Positions 1 to 31,841 of a stretch of DNA of 54,392 bases are shown here, piece by piece. The first letter of the stretch is position 1. Each line of letters opens with the position of its first letter. Under the pieces are notes generated by a model. The model was not told where the DNA came from and ran no database searches. It worked only from the letters and a program-made list of their open reading frames with translations. Position numbers and translations under genes: made by a program. Origin of the DNA: Akkermansiaceae bacterium (GTDB taxonomy: Bacteria > Verrucomicrobiota > Verrucomicrobiia > Verrucomicrobiales > Akkermansiaceae); the NCBI GenBank assembly GCA_903878115.1, contig CAIRGO010000292.1, positions 1 to 54,392 of the forward strand. Reading direction: 5' to 3'.

Positions 1-3000
1 ACCCTGAATGGCGAGAACATTGTTGCCTGTCTGCAGGAGAGCGATTGAGGAGTCGAGACTGATGACTTCCTCTGCAATGGCTACGGCATCAGGTGTTTCA
101 GCCGTAGCGGCACTAGTTCCGGTGAGTATGCTTGGTGCGTTGCGCGAGGCGATCCTTGTGCCATTCAAATAAATCACATAGCCATCATCGGCTTTGATTT
201 TTAAACGTAAGGCCGAGGTGTCACTTTTTTCTTGAGCAGTGAGCGAGAAAGGATAACGCATGAATGCTGTAGCGTTTTGATTGAGCATCGGCGTAGAAAT
301 ATTTTGTCCAATGTGCGTGGCCAAGAGATCTCCCGGAGGTGAAAAACCTATCGCTGGTGTCGTTATGGCGGACCATGAAACATCACTGGTTGCTGGTAAC
401 GACCATGTGGCGACAGAGTTGGTTAGTGTATTGTTGTAAATGGAAATGATTTCTGTGGGGCTCAAGCCGCGATTGTAGATGCGCACCTCATCGATCAATC
501 CATCGAAAAATCTTTCTGTTCCATTTCCGCGAGCACCGATGGCCCAGCCGACAGCGGGCACGGTTACGGCTCCAATCGTGCTTGCTGCTGAAGCGATTTG
601 ACTGCCATTCCGATAGAGTCTCCACGTTGTTCCATCCCAAACTATAGCGATATGCGTCCACACACCGATGTCATTGGTGGCAGAATTGAGACCCGTGGCG
701 TTGCCACTGGCAATGACTGTCGATGAATTTGACCAGTAACCACCTTGATAGGCTCCGCCGTTGATGCGCAGGGTGATTTCTCCGTTAGGCGAACTCGTTG
801 TATCGTGTCCTTTATTGATGATATTGCGCAGGCCATTCACCGCATCTGGCTTGACCCACGCCGAAAGGGTGATTTGACCAGTGATTTTCAATCCAGCAGG
901 ATCACCAAGAGAAATGTAGTCATTCGTGCCATCAAAATTCGCAGCTCCTGCTCCATATTTTCCTGGAGAAAGTATGGCCGCACCACTGGTCAATGTGCCG
1001 TTATAGCCACTTGCCGAATCATTCGCATTGGTATTGAGGTCGTAGTAGGCAAGCAAGTTGGGAATACTAGATGACGTGAATCCATCGCTAGGAGACGTGG
1101 GAATCCTGTATTTTCCTGCTGATTGGGCAGTAATCAGCGGAGCATTGTAAACAATGCTATTTTGATTGGAGGGATCACTGCCATCGGTGGTGTAATAAAT
1201 ACTCGCCGTGCCACTCATGGTAATATTACTTCCCGTGGAAATGGTCCCTCCAGCGGGGGCGAATGTAGGCGCGCTTACGTTGCTGTAAAATCCAGCGGTG
1301 GTGTATTGACTGATGACGGTGTTCGTTCTGTTAGGCATCCAGATATTTCGACAATCATCTTTCGACGATATCCAATTAGCAGGGGTTCGATAGTTCCAGC
1401 GAGCGCATTCTGCGATAAGAGCTTTGTCGATTGTGGCAAAAATTCCATCGAGCCTTGCTTGATTTGCAGCAGGGGTCATCGCTCCGCTGGGGTTAACAAA
1501 ATTTCGATGGATGCGATCAGAAAGCATGCGGCGATAGGTTGATCCACCGTCTTTGTAGAGCAGTGAAAAAATACTACCGGGACCATCGCCATTTTTTAGT
1601 CCAGGAGCATCACGTGCTGTGCGATCTTGTGCAGCGCTGCCATACCCTGAAAAGGTTAAATAACCATCCGCATCATTGAGGATAAATTTCATACCATGCC
1701 CGACATCAGCAGGACCCGTGATGCGGTATTCATCCTCCGAAGTGCCAAACATGAACATCGTCATGTAATCAACGTACTGCGAAACGTCAACATAGGGTTG
1801 CAGTTTGGTATAAACGTCAGAGCCTGAGCGCGCCAGAGACTTGATCCGCTCCCAGGCTTCTCCCGTTCCGTCGTAAACAGTTCCAGGATTAGCCCAGCCA
1901 CCAACGTTGAGATTACCATTGATCGACTCGTAGTCGCTACTTAGGCCACCGAAGTAGCTACTTATCATATCAGCACCCCAGCGTTCGCGTAGATGATAGA
2001 GTCCCCAATACACACCATTAAGATAGAGATGAACAAACCGACCGTGCGCTGCAAAACTGCCCATGTCTAATAGAGTGGCATCAGTAAACATGTTAGACAT
2101 ATAAAATCCGCGCTGACTCATGTCATGTGAGCCATTGCGCAGTTCGAAAGAATCAAATTCTTCCTGCGCTGCTAAGCCATGCTCGAAGCCCTTAAAGATC
2201 GGGAATTTGAACTTCCCGGCACCGTATGCTGACTTGAAACTAACACGGACACTTTTCTTGGTGAAATTGGTGAACGCTCCGCCGAAAAGTTGTGCCCCGC
2301 AGGGAAATTGCACATTTTCTCCCGTAGTGGGATTCAGCCATTCTATGGCTCCGATGCTGTCTACACCGCCCTTGATTGTAGTGGGTCCAACAGTGAGTGA
2401 CATGGAGGGAATCTGTCTGAGTGATGCGACCATGTCGGCACTGTAATTGGTGACAGTTGTTGGTTGAGCCCAAGGTGTTGATGAGATCACTGAGGCAGTG
2501 AAAACATAAGTATTGGTATCCACATTGGTGGGCGCAAAGTTGCTTCTGAATGCTGCTGCGCGAATTACCGTAGTACTACTGAATGTTATTGGCTCAGTGT
2601 AGATCGTTCCCGTTGTTGCAGTTGGCGCGGATCCGTCCGTCGTATAACGAATCACCGAACTTGGCGTTACTGTAGTGATGGCTACACTTTGGGATGTGTC
2701 ATAAAATCCACGCTTGATCGAAAACTTCGTGTCTTCCACGACACCATCGTAGCGCGTTCCATTTTCTGCATTCGGAGTGGCCGAAAAAAAATAACCGTAT
2801 TGACCACTCACTATGCCATAGCTGTGATCACCGAATTGCTTGGGATACAAGGCAGTCGTAGGATAATCAGCAGGAATTTGGCTCAATACCGTAGTTCCAT
2901 CTTTGGCGATTAGTCCAAGTGTTTCACCCGAGGTATTCAGCGCGAAAGATGCGTGGGGAGCCTCAAATTCCTCTGATATTCCGATGCCATCGGCAAAAAC

Positions 3001-26928: not shown

Positions 26929-28545
26929 ATGAAAAAGTCCTTTAGCTTAATGCTTGCTTGGCGATACCTCAACCCTCGTCGGGCGTGGATTTCCTCGATT
27001 GTGATGATCTCAGTCGGCGGCGTTTTGTTAGGAGTGCTGGTATTGGTCGTCGTCATGGCAGTTTTCGCGGGACTAGAGCGCGAACAAAAACAACGGTTGT
27101 TAGGTTTTAGTCCGCACTTGTTGCTTCAGTATTCTGAGACTGGTATTAATGCCACCACCATCGAAAACTGGGGAGAACAGATCGACCGCGCCAAATTAAT
27201 TCCTGGTGTCGTTTCTGCCTATCCACACGTCGAAGACAATGCGGTATTGGATTCTGGATCGATGCAACGTCCGGTGACCTATCAAGCTGTCGAAACCAAT
27301 GAGCCTGAGCAAATGGCGGGCATTGAGAAAATTCTCGATCTTGAAAATTATCCAGAATCTACTGCTGATATGGGCCTTGATGCCCGTGTGGTGGTTTCTT
27401 CCTTGATGGCTGATCAGTTTGGTTGGCAACTCGGGGATAAAATTAATCTGTATTCAACGCGTAATTTCCAGGAAGTTCTCAAGACCTACAAAAGCACCGA
27501 AGAACCGATCGTGCGTGAACGATTTCCAAAAGAGATTACTGCGATTCGCGATCTAACGGAAAAACAGTGGCTGGAAACGAGCACTGGTTTTACCATGAAT
27601 CGCAGCATGATGAATGCATTGAATGAAATTTATCAACTGATAGAAATCACTGATTTGCGCGACGGCGAACATCAAGCACTGCTAGGTATGTGGGACGTAG
27701 TCCTCGCCGCAGAAAAAAATGAGGCGAATGATACCTTTCATTTTGCCGAGGGCGCAAAGGCGCAGTTCCAAGAACCGCTGCGAGAGATTTTAGAATCTAA
27801 GCAAGATGAAATGGATGCTACCGAATTGAAAAATTTGAAAAGCATCGTGTTGCCACGCGAAGTAGAAATTGTTGGTGTTTTTCAAGCTGGTATGATGATG
27901 AAAATGCCTGATCTTTTTGTTCCGTTGCCACTGGCTCAAAGTCTGTCTGGATTGGGCGAAGGAGTGCAAGGGATTGCGCTACGGATCGAAGATCCTTATC
28001 AAGCAGAACAATTTCGTCCGATTGTGGGAAATGCTCTTTCAAAAAATTGGTATGTCATCACGTGGGGCGAGCAATTTCAGCAATTTTTTTCCCTCATCAG
28101 TCAACAACGATCGATGATGTATTTTGTGCTGTCGTTTATTGGATTGATCTCCGCTTTTTCGATGATGGCGGTGATGTTTACGGTCACGATTCAGAAGAAA
28201 CGTGAGATTGGGGTGATGAAAGCGTTAGGTGCCACACAATGGCAAATCATGCGCGTATTTCTCTATCAAGGAATCATTCTAGGATTGGTTGGTTCGCTGT
28301 TAGGTGTGTTTTTAGGACGCTTGATTATTTATTGCCGCGGTCCAATTCAGGACTTTTTTCAATCATTTGGTTTTGATCCATTCGCCTCGCGCTTGCTTGG
28401 ATTGCCGAAACTTCCTGCCTACATGGATCCCAAAGAACAATTTTACATTGGCTTGATGGGGTTGCTCTTGTGCATGTTTGCCTCGATTGTCCCAGCCTTT
28501 TTTGCCGCACGTAGTGACGCGGCTAAGTCATTACGCAATATCTAA
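26929..28545 (+). CDS. LolC/LolE-type FtsX-fold ABC transporter permease
   Basis: A 538-residue inner-membrane permease. It has the FtsX/MacB layout: one N-terminal helix (about 25-45, VMISVGGVLLGVLVLVVVMA), a long periplasmic region (about 60-370), and three C-terminal helices. The conserved KKREIGVMKALGATQWQIM is the FtsX-domain coupling motif. LolC/E members pull lipoproteins from the inner membrane with LolD ATPase. This one is about 130 residues longer than usual (~410), because of a helical insertion at about residues 185-300 in the periplasmic region. No lolD lies in the window. It is followed by the GYF-RDD protein after 4 bases, so the two are probably translated together. Confidence 0.88.
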   Translation: MKKSFSLMLAWRYLNPRRAWISSIVMISVGGVLLGVLVLVVVMAVFAGLEREQKQRLLGFSPHLLLQYSETGINATTIENWGEQIDRAKLIPGVVSAYPHVEDNAVLDSGSMQRPVTYQAVETNEPEQMAGIEKILDLENYPESTADMGLDARVVVSSLMADQFGWQLGDKINLYSTRNFQEVLKTYKSTEEPIVRERFPKEITAIRDLTEKQWLETSTGFTMNRSMMNALNEIYQLIEITDLRDGEHQALLGMWDVVLAAEKNEANDTFHFAEGAKAQFQEPLREILESKQDEMDATELKNLKSIVLPREVEIVGVFQAGMMMKMPDLFVPLPLAQSLSGLGEGVQGIALRIEDPYQAEQFRPIVGNALSKNWYVITWGEQFQQFFSLISQQRSMMYFVLSFIGLISAFSMMAVMFTVTIQKKREIGVMKALGATQWQIMRVFLYQGIILGLVGSLLGVFLGRLIIYCRGPIQDFFQSFGFDPFASRLLGLPKLPAYMDPKEQFYIGLMGLLLCMFASIVPAFFAARSDAAKSLRNI

Positions 28546-28549
28546 CAAC

Positions 28550-29383
28550 ATGAGAGTTTGGATCATTATCGACGGTGAAAAATCCGGACCTTTCGACATT
28601 TCCTATATCGCGCGTCGCATTGAAGAAGGAGAATTGAATGCTAGCCACTACGGTTGGAGCGAGGGCATGAAATCATGGATTTCTCTCGCGGAAATGCCTC
28701 AGTTTACGGAATCGTTTGCCCGTCGTAGTCAGGAACCACTCCCGCCGCCCATTCCTGATCTGGTGGTGAATCCTTATCTGCCTCCGACAAATTTACAGCC
28801 TGCTGCTGTGGGCGCGCGTGTACCGGTATCGTTTTTGATCCGTCGTTTCTTTGCTCGCTGGTTTGACTGGATGTTATGGTCTGGAATTTACCTCTGCACA
28901 GCCATTGCAATTGGCATGGACGTGAAAGCGTTGGTGATGAATTTTTGGTTCACCTATGCGATGATGATTGTCTGGGTGATTTTGGAGTCGGTGATGATGC
29001 ATCTCTGGCAAACAACTCCAGGAAAGTTTTTGTTAGGCATTCGTGTGCAATCGGCCGCGGGAAGCCCTCTTTCGTTAGGAAAAAGTTTTCTGCGCACCGT
29101 GCGTGTTTATTTAATGGGCATGGGAATGATTCACCCATTGTTGATGCCGATTTGTCACGGTTTTTCGTTTTGGTTTGTACGTAAGTATGGCGCTGCATTA
29201 TGGGATGGCTCCTTAGGGCAACGCGTAGAATGCAAGGCTCTTAGCGCATGGCGTTGGGTTACCTTTGCGTTGATTTTATTTACGATCATGCAACTAACTG
29301 GGGTCATGCTAGAGCCGCTATCGCGCGAACTGCTAAAGGATTTCTATGCTCAGTATCCGCAATGGGCTCCGCCAACGCAGTGA
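28550..29383 (+). CDS. GYF_2-RDD membrane protein
   Basis: A 277-residue protein. The ATG at 28550 gives the N-terminal GYF_2 (DUF4339) domain: MRVWIIIDGEKSGPFDISYI and HYGWSEGMKSWISLAEM. A proline-rich linker follows (LPPPIPDLVVNPYLPPTN). The C-terminal RDD domain (about 95-260) has the Arg and Asp pair RRFFARWFDWMLW and a later TTPGKFLLGIRVQSAAG. RDD proteins are small inner-membrane proteins of mostly unknown function; some have transport roles. GYF domains bind proline-rich peptides. This fusion is common in bacteria. It starts 4 bases after the permease gene and converges on the AAA gene with a 2-base gap. Confidence 0.85.
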   Translation: MRVWIIIDGEKSGPFDISYIARRIEEGELNASHYGWSEGMKSWISLAEMPQFTESFARRSQEPLPPPIPDLVVNPYLPPTNLQPAAVGARVPVSFLIRRFFARWFDWMLWSGIYLCTAIAIGMDVKALVMNFWFTYAMMIVWVILESVMMHLWQTTPGKFLLGIRVQSAAGSPLSLGKSFLRTVRVYLMGMGMIHPLLMPICHGFSFWFVRKYGAALWDGSLGQRVECKALSAWRWVTFALILFTIMQLTGVMLEPLSRELLKDFYAQYPQWAPPTQ

Positions 29384-29385
29384 TT

Positions 29386-31029
29386 CTAACGAAAAATGTT
29401 AGGCACGAAGGAAAGATCCGTGGCTTCTGCGACGGCTAGTTTGATTTGTTCGGCAATGATTTCAGGCGCTACGGGTGCTTGGTAATCTGCTAACGCTTTG
29501 GTCAATGCCTCGATGGGGTCGGGGTATTTGGTTTTTAGCATGCGATAGACTTTCACCGATAGTGCTTCTGCTGCACCAGGGGTCAATAAATTCGGCATGT
29601 GTTGCACTAAATTGTTAGGCAATTGATCGGGTAGCACGACTTGTCGGCGTTTGCATAAAGCTCGCAACAGCGCATAACTTTCCTCCACCGTGCTTGTCGG
29701 GAAAAGTGGGATTTTCACATCGATCCTGCCTGGGCGTTTTAAGTCCACTTCTACCAAATCGGGACGACTGGTCGCTAGGACCCAGATGATTTTTCCGCGA
29801 TTGCGCGAGTTGCTCATTTGCTCGGCCATCATACCATAAATGCGTCCATTCACACCCGAATCACCGCTGTCAGCATTGCGACGCCCCAGTGCTTGATCAG
29901 CTTCATCAATGAAAACAATGCAGCGGCCAAGTGCTTCTAATAGCCGAAAAATTTTCTCTAAATTTGATTCTGTCGAGCCGACCCATTTGTCGCGGAAATT
30001 TTTCATTTTCACCACCGGCACACCAGCTTCACCGGCGAGGCATTCGACGAGAAATGTTTTCCCTGTTCCCACTGGACCGCAGAAAAGATAACCCATCGGC
30101 AGGGCGGCGAGGTCGCCTTTTTTCCAGAGTTCGATATCTTGTCGTAGCCATTGTTTGATGCTCTCGATGCCGTAGAGATCATCGAGTGAGCGGTCGGGCT
30201 TGAGAAATTCGATTAAGCCACCGGCGTCTTGTTCGACTAATTCTTTTTTGATGGCGATTAAGTCATCCACCTGCAATGGCAGTTGATGATGTTCACGTTT
30301 CTGCAATAGAGATTCGATCGAATGTAAGCTCGCACCAGCTAAAGCTGCGGCGGGCTGAGAAAGATCTGTGATAAAGGGAGCTAACGCTCTTGCATAAATT
30401 CCTGACAAGTATGTCAAGGCGGGCATTAACTGATCCGCTTGAGGCAGGGGAATGGTGATGCGCGCGCTTTGTGGGTTCGTGGCGAGCAATGGATGAATAT
30501 CATTGAGATTTTCGCTCAGCAAAAAAGTAGCACAATGGCTGCTAGTAATCGCAGGGTCAGTGGCCCAATCGCGAAGTTGCGAGGCGATCGCGCTCAGTTC
30601 ATAATTGGCCGAGCCTTGCGATGGTGGGATGATTAAGTTGACGCTTTGCACGAGAATCGCTACGCGAATAATCTTATCTGGCTTGAGCCGAGTTACATTC
30701 GCACAGAAACGCAAGTAGTGGGTTAGCACATGAATGGCCTCGCGCGGTGTGCTGGGTAATAATTTGTCTTTATAAGTTGGCCATTGCGCAAAAATCTCGC
30801 CGCCCTTTTCCACGCGCGTTCCGTTGCCTAGATCGTAGCTGATGATGACATCAAATTTCGCTAACAGAATTTCTTTCAGATAATCGGTTAGACTAGACAA
30901 TCGCGACTTTCCGTTAGATGAAATCAAATAACGGTCGTTGATATTGCCAGTCACCAAGAATTGTGAAGCGGCTCCCGATTCGTAGAGATCGATGATTTCT
31001 TGCGTCCATGGTGGAAGGGAGGAGTTCAT
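29386..31029 (-). CDS. Classic AAA ATPase (Vps4/Ycf46-like) paired with a PspA-like protein
   Basis: A 547-residue protein. The N-terminal half (about 1-270) resembles the inactive P-loop-like region of Ycf46-type ATPases (FLVTGNINDRYLI). The C-terminal half is a classic AAA module: Walker A GPVGTGKT (about 316-323), pore loop DKWVGSTESNLEKIF (about 345-360), Walker B IVFIDEADQALGRR (about 370), Sensor 1 LATSRPDLV and the arginine-finger RPGRID (about 433). The KWVG pore loop is like that of Vps4 and katanin, which unfold or disassemble helical polymers. It starts 26 bases after the PspA-like gene, so the two form an operon. Role inferred: disassembling or remodelling the PspA-like polymer. 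That inference is not shown by the sequence itself. Confidence 0.88.
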   Translation of the reverse strand: MNSSLPPWTQEIIDLYESGAASQFLVTGNINDRYLISSNGKSRLSSLTDYLKEILLAKFDVIISYDLGNGTRVEKGGEIFAQWPTYKDKLLPSTPREAIHVLTHYLRFCANVTRLKPDKIIRVAILVQSVNLIIPPSQGSANYELSAIASQLRDWATDPAITSSHCATFLLSENLNDIHPLLATNPQSARITIPLPQADQLMPALTYLSGIYARALAPFITDLSQPAAALAGASLHSIESLLQKREHHQLPLQVDDLIAIKKELVEQDAGGLIEFLKPDRSLDDLYGIESIKQWLRQDIELWKKGDLAALPMGYLFCGPVGTGKTFLVECLAGEAGVPVVKMKNFRDKWVGSTESNLEKIFRLLEALGRCIVFIDEADQALGRRNADSGDSGVNGRIYGMMAEQMSNSRNRGKIIWVLATSRPDLVEVDLKRPGRIDVKIPLFPTSTVEESYALLRALCKRRQVVLPDQLPNNLVQHMPNLLTPGAAEALSVKVYRMLKTKYPDPIEALTKALADYQAPVAPEIIAEQIKLAVAEATDLSFVPNIFR

Positions 31030-31055
31030 GAGCGCCGTATGGTGATGATGGAGCT

Positions 31056-31841
31056 TTACGCCTCAGGGGTCATTTCTTTTTTGATCTCTGCTGGAGCGGC
31101 TTCAGTAGCGCTGGGTGCCGTGTTGACTGGCATGCCCAGTTCCGCCGCGAGATCAGCGAGAGCCATGTCCTCGAGCGCTTCACGTTCAGATTGTTGCTCC
31201 TTGAAGCTAGATGTATCGATGCTATCGCGCGCCACACGAGCACGACCAGCCGCTTTGATGCGTTCTTCCTCGACCATATCGTGCACACGGCTAAGCGTAT
31301 CTCCCGAACCGCCGATTTGCGTGAGCATACCGCTGGCCATCTCGTTCATTTCTGCGAGGGCTTTTTTCATTTTCAGATCATCGAGATCTTTGCGCAGTTC
31401 TTCCATTTTATCGCGCGCGGTTTTTATGGCGATATCGCGCGATAGCGTGAGCTCTTTATAAGTGGTTTCGGCATCGACGAGTTGAGCTCTGTTATCAGCG
31501 AGCTCTTTACGAACGCGTTGCAGTTCCAGGGCGATTTCACCTGCGAGACGTTGGTTGCCGGCGCGCAGGTTAGCAGCAGCTTTGGCTTTCAAATCGATTT
31601 CCTGTTTTTCCTCACGCTTTACTTGAGCAATTAGTTTTTCACAAAGCCCTGCGTGTGCGACGAGCCCTTGATTGAATTGAGTGATTTGCTTGCGCAAGTT
31701 TTCTTTTTCGAGCTCAAGTAGTGCTTCAGGATTGCGTTTTTCCATGCCGGAAACGAAGAGTCCCAGAAAGCCTTTGAAGATATTGGCAAGTCGTTTAAAC
31801 ATATTTTTTGGTGATGGAGGTGGATCGTTGTCAATCGCCAT
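31056..31841 (-). CDS. PspA/IM30-like coiled-coil protein
   Basis: A 261-residue protein rich in heptads. An N-terminal amphipathic helix (MFKRLANIFKGFLGLFVSGM, starting at residue 14) is followed by a long coiled coil (about 40-190: LEKENLRKQITQFNQGLVAH to KKALAEMNEMASGMLT). A hairpin break comes at GGSGDTL, and the C-terminal tail is Ala/Pro/Glu-rich. These are the features of the bacterial ESCRT-III relatives PspA and Vipp1, which coat damaged membranes. The similarity is structural rather than strong in sequence. A shorter start at 31802 (residue 14) is possible. It is the first gene of an operon with the AAA ATPase. Confidence 0.7.
   Translation of the reverse strand: MAIDNDPPPSPKNMFKRLANIFKGFLGLFVSGMEKRNPEALLELEKENLRKQITQFNQGLVAHAGLCEKLIAQVKREEKQEIDLKAKAAANLRAGNQRLAGEIALELQRVRKELADNRAQLVDAETTYKELTLSRDIAIKTARDKMEELRKDLDDLKMKKALAEMNEMASGMLTQIGGSGDTLSRVHDMVEEERIKAAGRARVARDSIDTSSFKEQQSEREALEDMALADLAAELGMPVNTAPSATEAAPAEIKKEMTPEA

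Follow-up and report, generated by a model that had tools for sequence, protein, structure and literature searches.

Do two adjacent genes in the genome of an Akkermansiaceae bacterium encode a membrane-remodeling polymer and the ATPase that takes it apart? Judging from two papers (PMC11791191; PMC10936438), what disassembles PspA/Vipp1 polymers is an open question. The pair analyzed here possibly does in bacteria what ESCRT-III and Vps4 do elsewhere. This two-gene system is kept together across the records of several phyla and carries a candidate docking tail, so the question becomes testable with two proteins. The whole analyzed stretch of DNA, herein referred to as the window, is 54,392 nucleotides long (contig CAIRGO010000292.1). 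The gene pair occupies the following positions:

31056..31841, minus strand: open reading frame (ORF) of the PspA/IM30 family, 261 aa as called (PF04012, 41.4 bits)
31056..31802, minus strand: likely true PspA gene, 248 aa from a start at M14, by comparison
31030..31055: spacer of 26 bases between the PspA gene and the AAA gene
29386..31029, minus strand: gene for the tandem AAA protein, 547 aa

The PspA-like ORF is located upstream and the AAA gene downstream, at the coordinates and with the 26-base gap given in the preliminary description of this locus; both are on the minus strand. The gene pair is real. A NusB-family gene is located upstream of the PspA-like ORF on the same strand (Pfam). 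Directly downstream of the AAA gene, a GYF_2 and RDD gene was found on the opposite strand (window positions 28478-29383; Pfam). A terminator scan found no minus-strand site between the PspA and AAA genes; this blank says little, since the sites found by the scan were no more numerous than in shuffled sequences.

The upstream protein matches the PspA_IM30 profile (PF04012) over residues 14-234, with 41.4 bits against a curated cut-off of 33.9 and an E-value of 1.7e-10. The preliminary description had assigned this protein to the PspA/IM30 type and named a profile search placing it outside PspA/Vipp1 as a refutation; the search placed it inside the family. A sequence search of the PDB with the same ORF gave three matches (E from 0.017 to 0.7), none of them PspA or ESCRT-III. 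The AlphaFold2 (AF2) model, built from 43 sequences, has a mean pLDDT of 77.9 and contains six helices (residues 11-36, 38-93, 97-152, 155-176, 179-207, and 213-235). Among solved chains, E. coli PspA (4whe) comes first for this model, with a Z of 10.5 and an rmsd of 2.6 across 126 residues. Unrelated long-helix chains score equally, and the comparison tool cautions that Z values below about 13 are hardly informative for long-helix folds. Vipp1 chains follow just behind 4whe and reach positions 15..237 of the model at very large rmsd. Because unrelated long-helix proteins match the model equally well, the PspA assignment is carried by the profile match.

All 14 aligned PspA ORFs conserve the Met that corresponds to M14 in the window ORF, and 10 of them start there. 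The gene is therefore likelier to be 31802..31056, with the start probably at M14 (31802) rather than at M1. Near this start lies the following feature:

31734..31811, minus strand: predicted amphipathic helix alpha-0, residues 11-36 (AF2 block pLDDT 66-75; hydrophobic moment 0.50)

The moment of 0.50 is reached by 1.1% of shuffled sequences, which agrees with the amphipathic N-terminal helix noticed earlier.

The downstream protein matches PF00004 with 93.9 bits (cut-off 21.2) over residues 315-441. Its domains and motifs are located as follows:

30220..31017, minus strand: degenerate first AAA domain, about residues 5-270, placed by model alignment; no Pfam match and no Walker A
29392..30219, minus strand: second AAA domain with intact motifs, about residues 271-546 (PF00004, 93.9 bits; the model aligns with Vps4, spastin, and p97 D2)
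30055..30078, minus strand: Walker A GPVGTGKT, residues 318-325
29977..29988, minus strand: pore loop 1 KWVG, residues 348-351 (W349 and G351 in 52/52)
29896..29916, minus strand: Walker B VFIDEAD, residues 372-378 (D375 and E376 in 52/52)
29719..29736, minus strand: arginine-finger segment RPGRID, residues 432-437 (R432 and R435 in 52/52)

All four motifs named in the preliminary description are thus present, and the six residues indicated are identical across the 52 close-family AAA sequences. The strict Walker A pattern GPxG[TV]GKT was found in 51 of 57 AAA sequences, and five distant ones have the form G..GVGKS. At residue 421, where we would expect the usual sensor-1 Asn, all 52 close relatives have Ser, as do the five distant ones. 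No Walker A was found within the first 260 residues in any of the 57 sequences, and Pfam gave no match in the N-terminal half of the window protein. This first domain contains a conserved FxxxGNxxD stretch where the P-loop would sit.

The AF2 model of the AAA protein (50 sequences) has a mean pLDDT of 90.7 and a pTM of 0.84. Residues from about 5 to 536 align with p97, Rix7, NVL, Drg1, and Pex1/Pex6 (Z about 20-21, 449-482 residues, rmsd 5-9), over a span of these chains that presumably covers both their AAA domains. For the second half, Vps4 and spastin align at an rmsd of about 3 (Z about 20-21). Since the model aligns across both domains of tandem AAA proteins, the N-terminal half is read as a degenerate first AAA domain, which would be inactive judging from its missing Walker A. 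This first AAA-like domain starts near residue 5. NCBIfam gave 79.2 bits for CDC48 and 45.1 bits for CdvC, both far below the cut-offs of those models. Neither an MIT domain nor Vps4_C was matched by Pfam at E up to 1. In view of the tandem architecture and the lack of MIT and Vps4_C matches, the protein is not assigned to the Vps4/CdvC family. The label 'Vps4-like', used earlier for this tandem protein, is thus dropped as a family name: no MIT domain was matched, and the CDC48 score exceeds that for CdvC. With no MIT domain found, the AAA protein does not fit the way in which Vps4 is known to dock.

In total, 326 relatives of the AAA protein were found by scanning one genome per species, and the best 80 loci, selected by means of two peptides from the second AAA domain, were analyzed. 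By record title, these best 80 of 326 comprise 50 Verrucomicrobiota, 27 loci from other groups (Planctomycetota, Acidobacteria, Deltaproteobacteria, Abditibacteriaceae, Sumerlaeota, and more), and 3 named just 'bacterium'; most are metagenome-assembled genomes (MAGs). Of the 80 best loci, 54 encode a PspA of the window subtype upstream of the AAA gene and in the same orientation, four times as an end-of-contig fragment. The remaining 26 genomes were searched for a subtype PspA elsewhere: 25 carry one each (369-411 bits), and none was found in G283 (L119). Some of these 26 PspA-less loci may be linked across contig breaks, as only short stretches lie upstream of the AAA gene in L072 (849 bases), L091 (1679), L110 (2192), and L132 (668). 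The operon-like pairing reported from the window is therefore widespread, and a check proposed with it, a survey of gene neighborhoods, places the PspA and AAA genes together far beyond the source genome.

The same association was seen when whole genomes were compared. Among 38 genomes (the source genome and 37 kin), the AAA protein was found in 14, and all 14 carry the subtype PspA, nearby in 9 and on another contig in 5. Here, 'nearby' means the same strand with spacers of 26 to about 1300 bases, sometimes with another ORF between. One genome, G010, was counted as PspA-positive via a contig fragment, the Pfam search having found no PspA in it. PspA alone, with no AAA, was found in G004. The association is strong by Fisher's test (p 1.6e-9, phylogeny not corrected). 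Within the source genus, the pair is present only in G000 and G002 out of ten genomes. Among 240 genomes drawn across the phylum, an AAA protein of the window family was found in 4, all of them with the subtype PspA, and PspA alone in 2; five genomes with distant AAA proteins were excluded from this count. Some PspA_IM30 match is present in 33 of the 240, and 29 of these 33 have no AAA of the window family. The phylum draw adds little independent weight, since three of its four AAA genomes recur among the kin and the remaining one is where L092 comes from. The locus and genome sets overlap further (L064, L118, L121, L129, and L092 correspond to G002, G036, G025, G010, and G264), and loci, MAGs, and phyla are non-independent samples. 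Co-occurrence of the subtype PspA with the AAA protein is near-obligate for one PspA clade.

What distinguishes this PspA subtype is found after the core, where a C-terminal helix (residues 213-235) is followed by a linker that varies and a tail end that is conserved:

31137..31205, minus strand: C-terminal helix with the subtype motif ALADLAA, residues 213-235 (AF2 block pLDDT 69, 89, 83 for residues 211-240)
31059..31079, minus strand: extreme C-terminus KEMTPEA, residues 255-261, the window form of the K-x-M(G-P) tail end

The helix motif was found in 76/76 subtype PspAs and in 0/25 usable control PspAs; the 76/76 is descriptive because the pattern was composed after the family had been seen. 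The 76 sequences are 50 in-locus PspAs, 25 unlinked ones, and that of the window; the in-locus fragments L071, L087, L100 (just 50 aa, 32.5 bits), and L129 were excluded. The controls comprised 27 rows, two of which were wrong ORFs (L186 and L209). A loose tail pattern matches 72 of the 76 subtype PspAs, the other four having TMGP or SMGP outside the pattern, and M257 is present in 90% or more of the rows. Conservation within the subtype is 0.86 for residues 225-236, 0.36 for the linker (237-252), and 0.78 for the core (14-212). The helix is the sixth in order, counting from alpha-0, and we take it to occupy the place of alpha-5. In PspA/ESCRT-III lattices, alpha-5 packs. Conservation of the C-terminal helix may thus serve assembly instead of docking. 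The motif is also a clade marker, and with its place in the helix order it is not accepted as a proven docking site.

The PspA tree was built from 43 of the 76 subtype sequences, 3 PspAs from genomes lacking the AAA, and 23 of the 27 controls, with a midpoint root. The AAA-linked PspAs form one group (95/96), separate from the other PspAs. Two AAA-less PspAs of one genus branch just outside this group under the midpoint root. The third, from G004, is placed within the seven-member group of the window PspA (98/98). Its branch measures 2.22, those of its neighbors 0.05-0.22; the tree tool flags long branches that meet, and this branch may be misplaced. This gene (L158:5663-6412) comes from the source genus, and G004 also carries a canonical PspA. 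The C-terminal motifs, read by eye, are altered in 3/3 AAA-less PspAs, two of which come from one genus. A long branch and altered motifs are what would be expected if the partner AAA had constrained PspA, the events being few.

Further genes accompany the pair in some lineages; the hydrophobic and coiled-coil calls on these genes were made by eye. A third gene, encoding about 230-320 aa with a hydrophobic N-terminus, was found between or near the PspA and AAA genes in 22 of the 80 best loci (E up to 1e-5; one of them, L134, is weak), and all 22 have PspA. Examples located between PspA and AAA, of about 270 aa, include L105:5092-5892, L113:5138-5968, and L124:5111-5944, among others. Six members were scanned, and no Pfam match above cut-off was found. 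As searches for the third gene gave no match in the source genome or in 35 of the 38 genomes (the source genome included), it is optional, and its role as a required component was rejected. Other loci encode a short hydrophobic protein, about 120-130 aa in length, between PspA and AAA (L076:5566-5964, L080:5565-5963, L087:509-880, and L121:5568-5942); three of these were scanned, and no Pfam match above cut-off was found. The small hydrophobic genes look as if a membrane partner had been recruited more than once. The longer operons at L151-L155 (G081, G123, G153, G197, and G200) contain a tandem-AAA family that is only distantly related, scoring 259-322 bits to A1. The only one of these operons scanned, L154, encodes an ABC ATPase together with VWA, OmpA-domain, and coiled-coil proteins, and it includes a gene weakly related to the third gene. 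The match of its coiled-coil protein to PspA_IM30 is not significant (E 0.41).

The analysis shows which domains make up the two proteins, that the first Walker A has been lost, and that subtype PspA and AAA co-occur almost obligately. Judged from sequences and structure models, the pair is probably, if by no great measure, a bacterial ESCRT-III-type polymer with a dedicated remodeling ATPase. PspA would polymerize on the inner membrane via its amphipathic helix alpha-0, as suggested by its family. The AAA protein would form a two-tier hexamer, in which the first ring, having no P-loop, may act as a platform and the second ring, with Walker A/B, arginine fingers, and the KWVG pore loop, would do the pulling. 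The subtype PspA might be recognized by its special C-terminal helix and/or by the K-x-M(G-P) tail end on its flexible linker. Threading of the PspA tail would then extract subunits, resulting in turnover or a change in shape of the coat. Contact between PspA and AAA, the hexamer, threading, and disassembly are steps that we infer, and that the AAA protein takes PspA polymers apart is our best inference. It is conceivable, although we lean slightly against it, that an ESCRT-III/Vps4-type machine evolved independently in bacteria. After losing the ATP site in the first ring, a Cdc48-type tandem AAA would have become the disassembly engine dedicated to one PspA clade, with the C-terminal helix and tail replacing MIT-MIM. 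A passage of PMC11746142 reports slow ATP hydrolysis by PspA itself, so PspA may need no partner.

Another client for the ATPase is an unlikely reading that nevertheless deserves to be kept in view. Here, PspA would be a scaffold or adaptor recruiting the AAA protein to damaged membrane, where the latter would extract or unfold other membrane proteins, as Cdc48/p97 does. The higher score for CDC48 than for CdvC and the p97-like tandem fold are consistent with this, and the third gene, with PspA in 22/22 of its loci, suggests that some lineages include a further membrane protein in the system. However, the fixed partner is PspA, with its own tail signature, and neither the source genome nor most of its kin gave a match to the third gene.

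The direction of action could also be the opposite of disassembly, the AAA protein serving PspA polymers as an assembly factor, by loading or shaping them and not by removing subunits. This reading fits the same co-occurrence data, and we consider it improbable, as translocation and disassembly are the usual activities of classic AAA proteins whose pore loop is aromatic. Section 18 of Ravi et al. (2024; PMC11237479) also mentions membrane-complex assembly. The present data do not separate the two directions.

Regulation of the AAA protein by PspA, with the AAA protein as effector, appears quite improbable. Its model is E. coli PspA, which represses PspF. This repression appears among the titles in the reference list of PMC8281802. 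However, PspF is an NtrC-type AAA+ protein with a Fis-type HTH according to Ravi et al. (2024; PMC11237479), whereas the window AAA matches PF00004 and has no such domain; its domain class disfavors a PspF-like role in transcription.

That PspA and AAA have no joint function, and that common phylogeny or chromosomal position is all that links them, is very improbable: 50 of the 80 best loci are verrucomicrobial by title, most are MAGs, and the tests ignore phylogeny, but the two genes co-occur even on different contigs (25 of 26 genomes), which makes functional unlinking unlikely as a default, and they are present and absent jointly within one genus.

With disassembly of PspA by the AAA protein as the preferred reading, the pair can be compared with known systems. 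The preliminary description stated that AAA ATPases had been reported near pspA, and this is correct. In section 18, Ravi et al. (2024, mSystems; PMC11237479) note that bacterial PspA is occasionally accompanied by a double-AAA+ protein, inactive in its N-terminal domain; they propose that such pairs use ATP to remodel membranes in a manner comparable to Snf7/VPS4. The window pair shares with that description the two AAA domains, the N-terminal copy without Walker A, and the gene near PspA, and it is a member of the kind published there; for the example AEY64321.1, identity of family with the window AAA rests on the description. Longer operons mentioned in the same section, with an ABC ATPase, a permease, a PBPB-OmpA protein, and TM-bearing Snf7 homologs, resemble the L154 operon of the distant AAA family. 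Co-occurrence is 'occasional' in that section and near-obligate for one PspA clade here; this near-obligate co-occurrence, the tail signature, and the fold are added by the present analysis. No experimental study of a PspA/double-AAA pair was found in the open-license PMC literature.

The likeness to ESCRT-III/Vps4 (CdvB/CdvC) consists in an ESCRT-III/PspA-superfamily protein accompanied by a classic AAA protein whose second domain aligns with Vps4. Unlike Vps4/CdvC, the window AAA is a tandem protein, has no MIT or Vps4_C match, and scores higher with CDC48 than with CdvC. Thus, of the interpretation first given to this locus, PspA membership and the widespread operon-like pairing stand, and the statement of Vps4 family does not. 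PspA-PspF likewise joins PspA with an AAA+ protein, but PspF, as an NtrC-type transcription activator, belongs to another AAA+ class. With p97/Cdc48, Rix7/NVL, Drg1, and Pex1/Pex6, the window AAA shares, in its predicted model, the tandem AAA fold across nearly its whole length. An inactive ring is also present in Pex1/Pex6. It differs from these tandem proteins by its 547 aa, the lack of an extra N-domain, a first domain lacking the P-loop, and PspA as its genomic partner.
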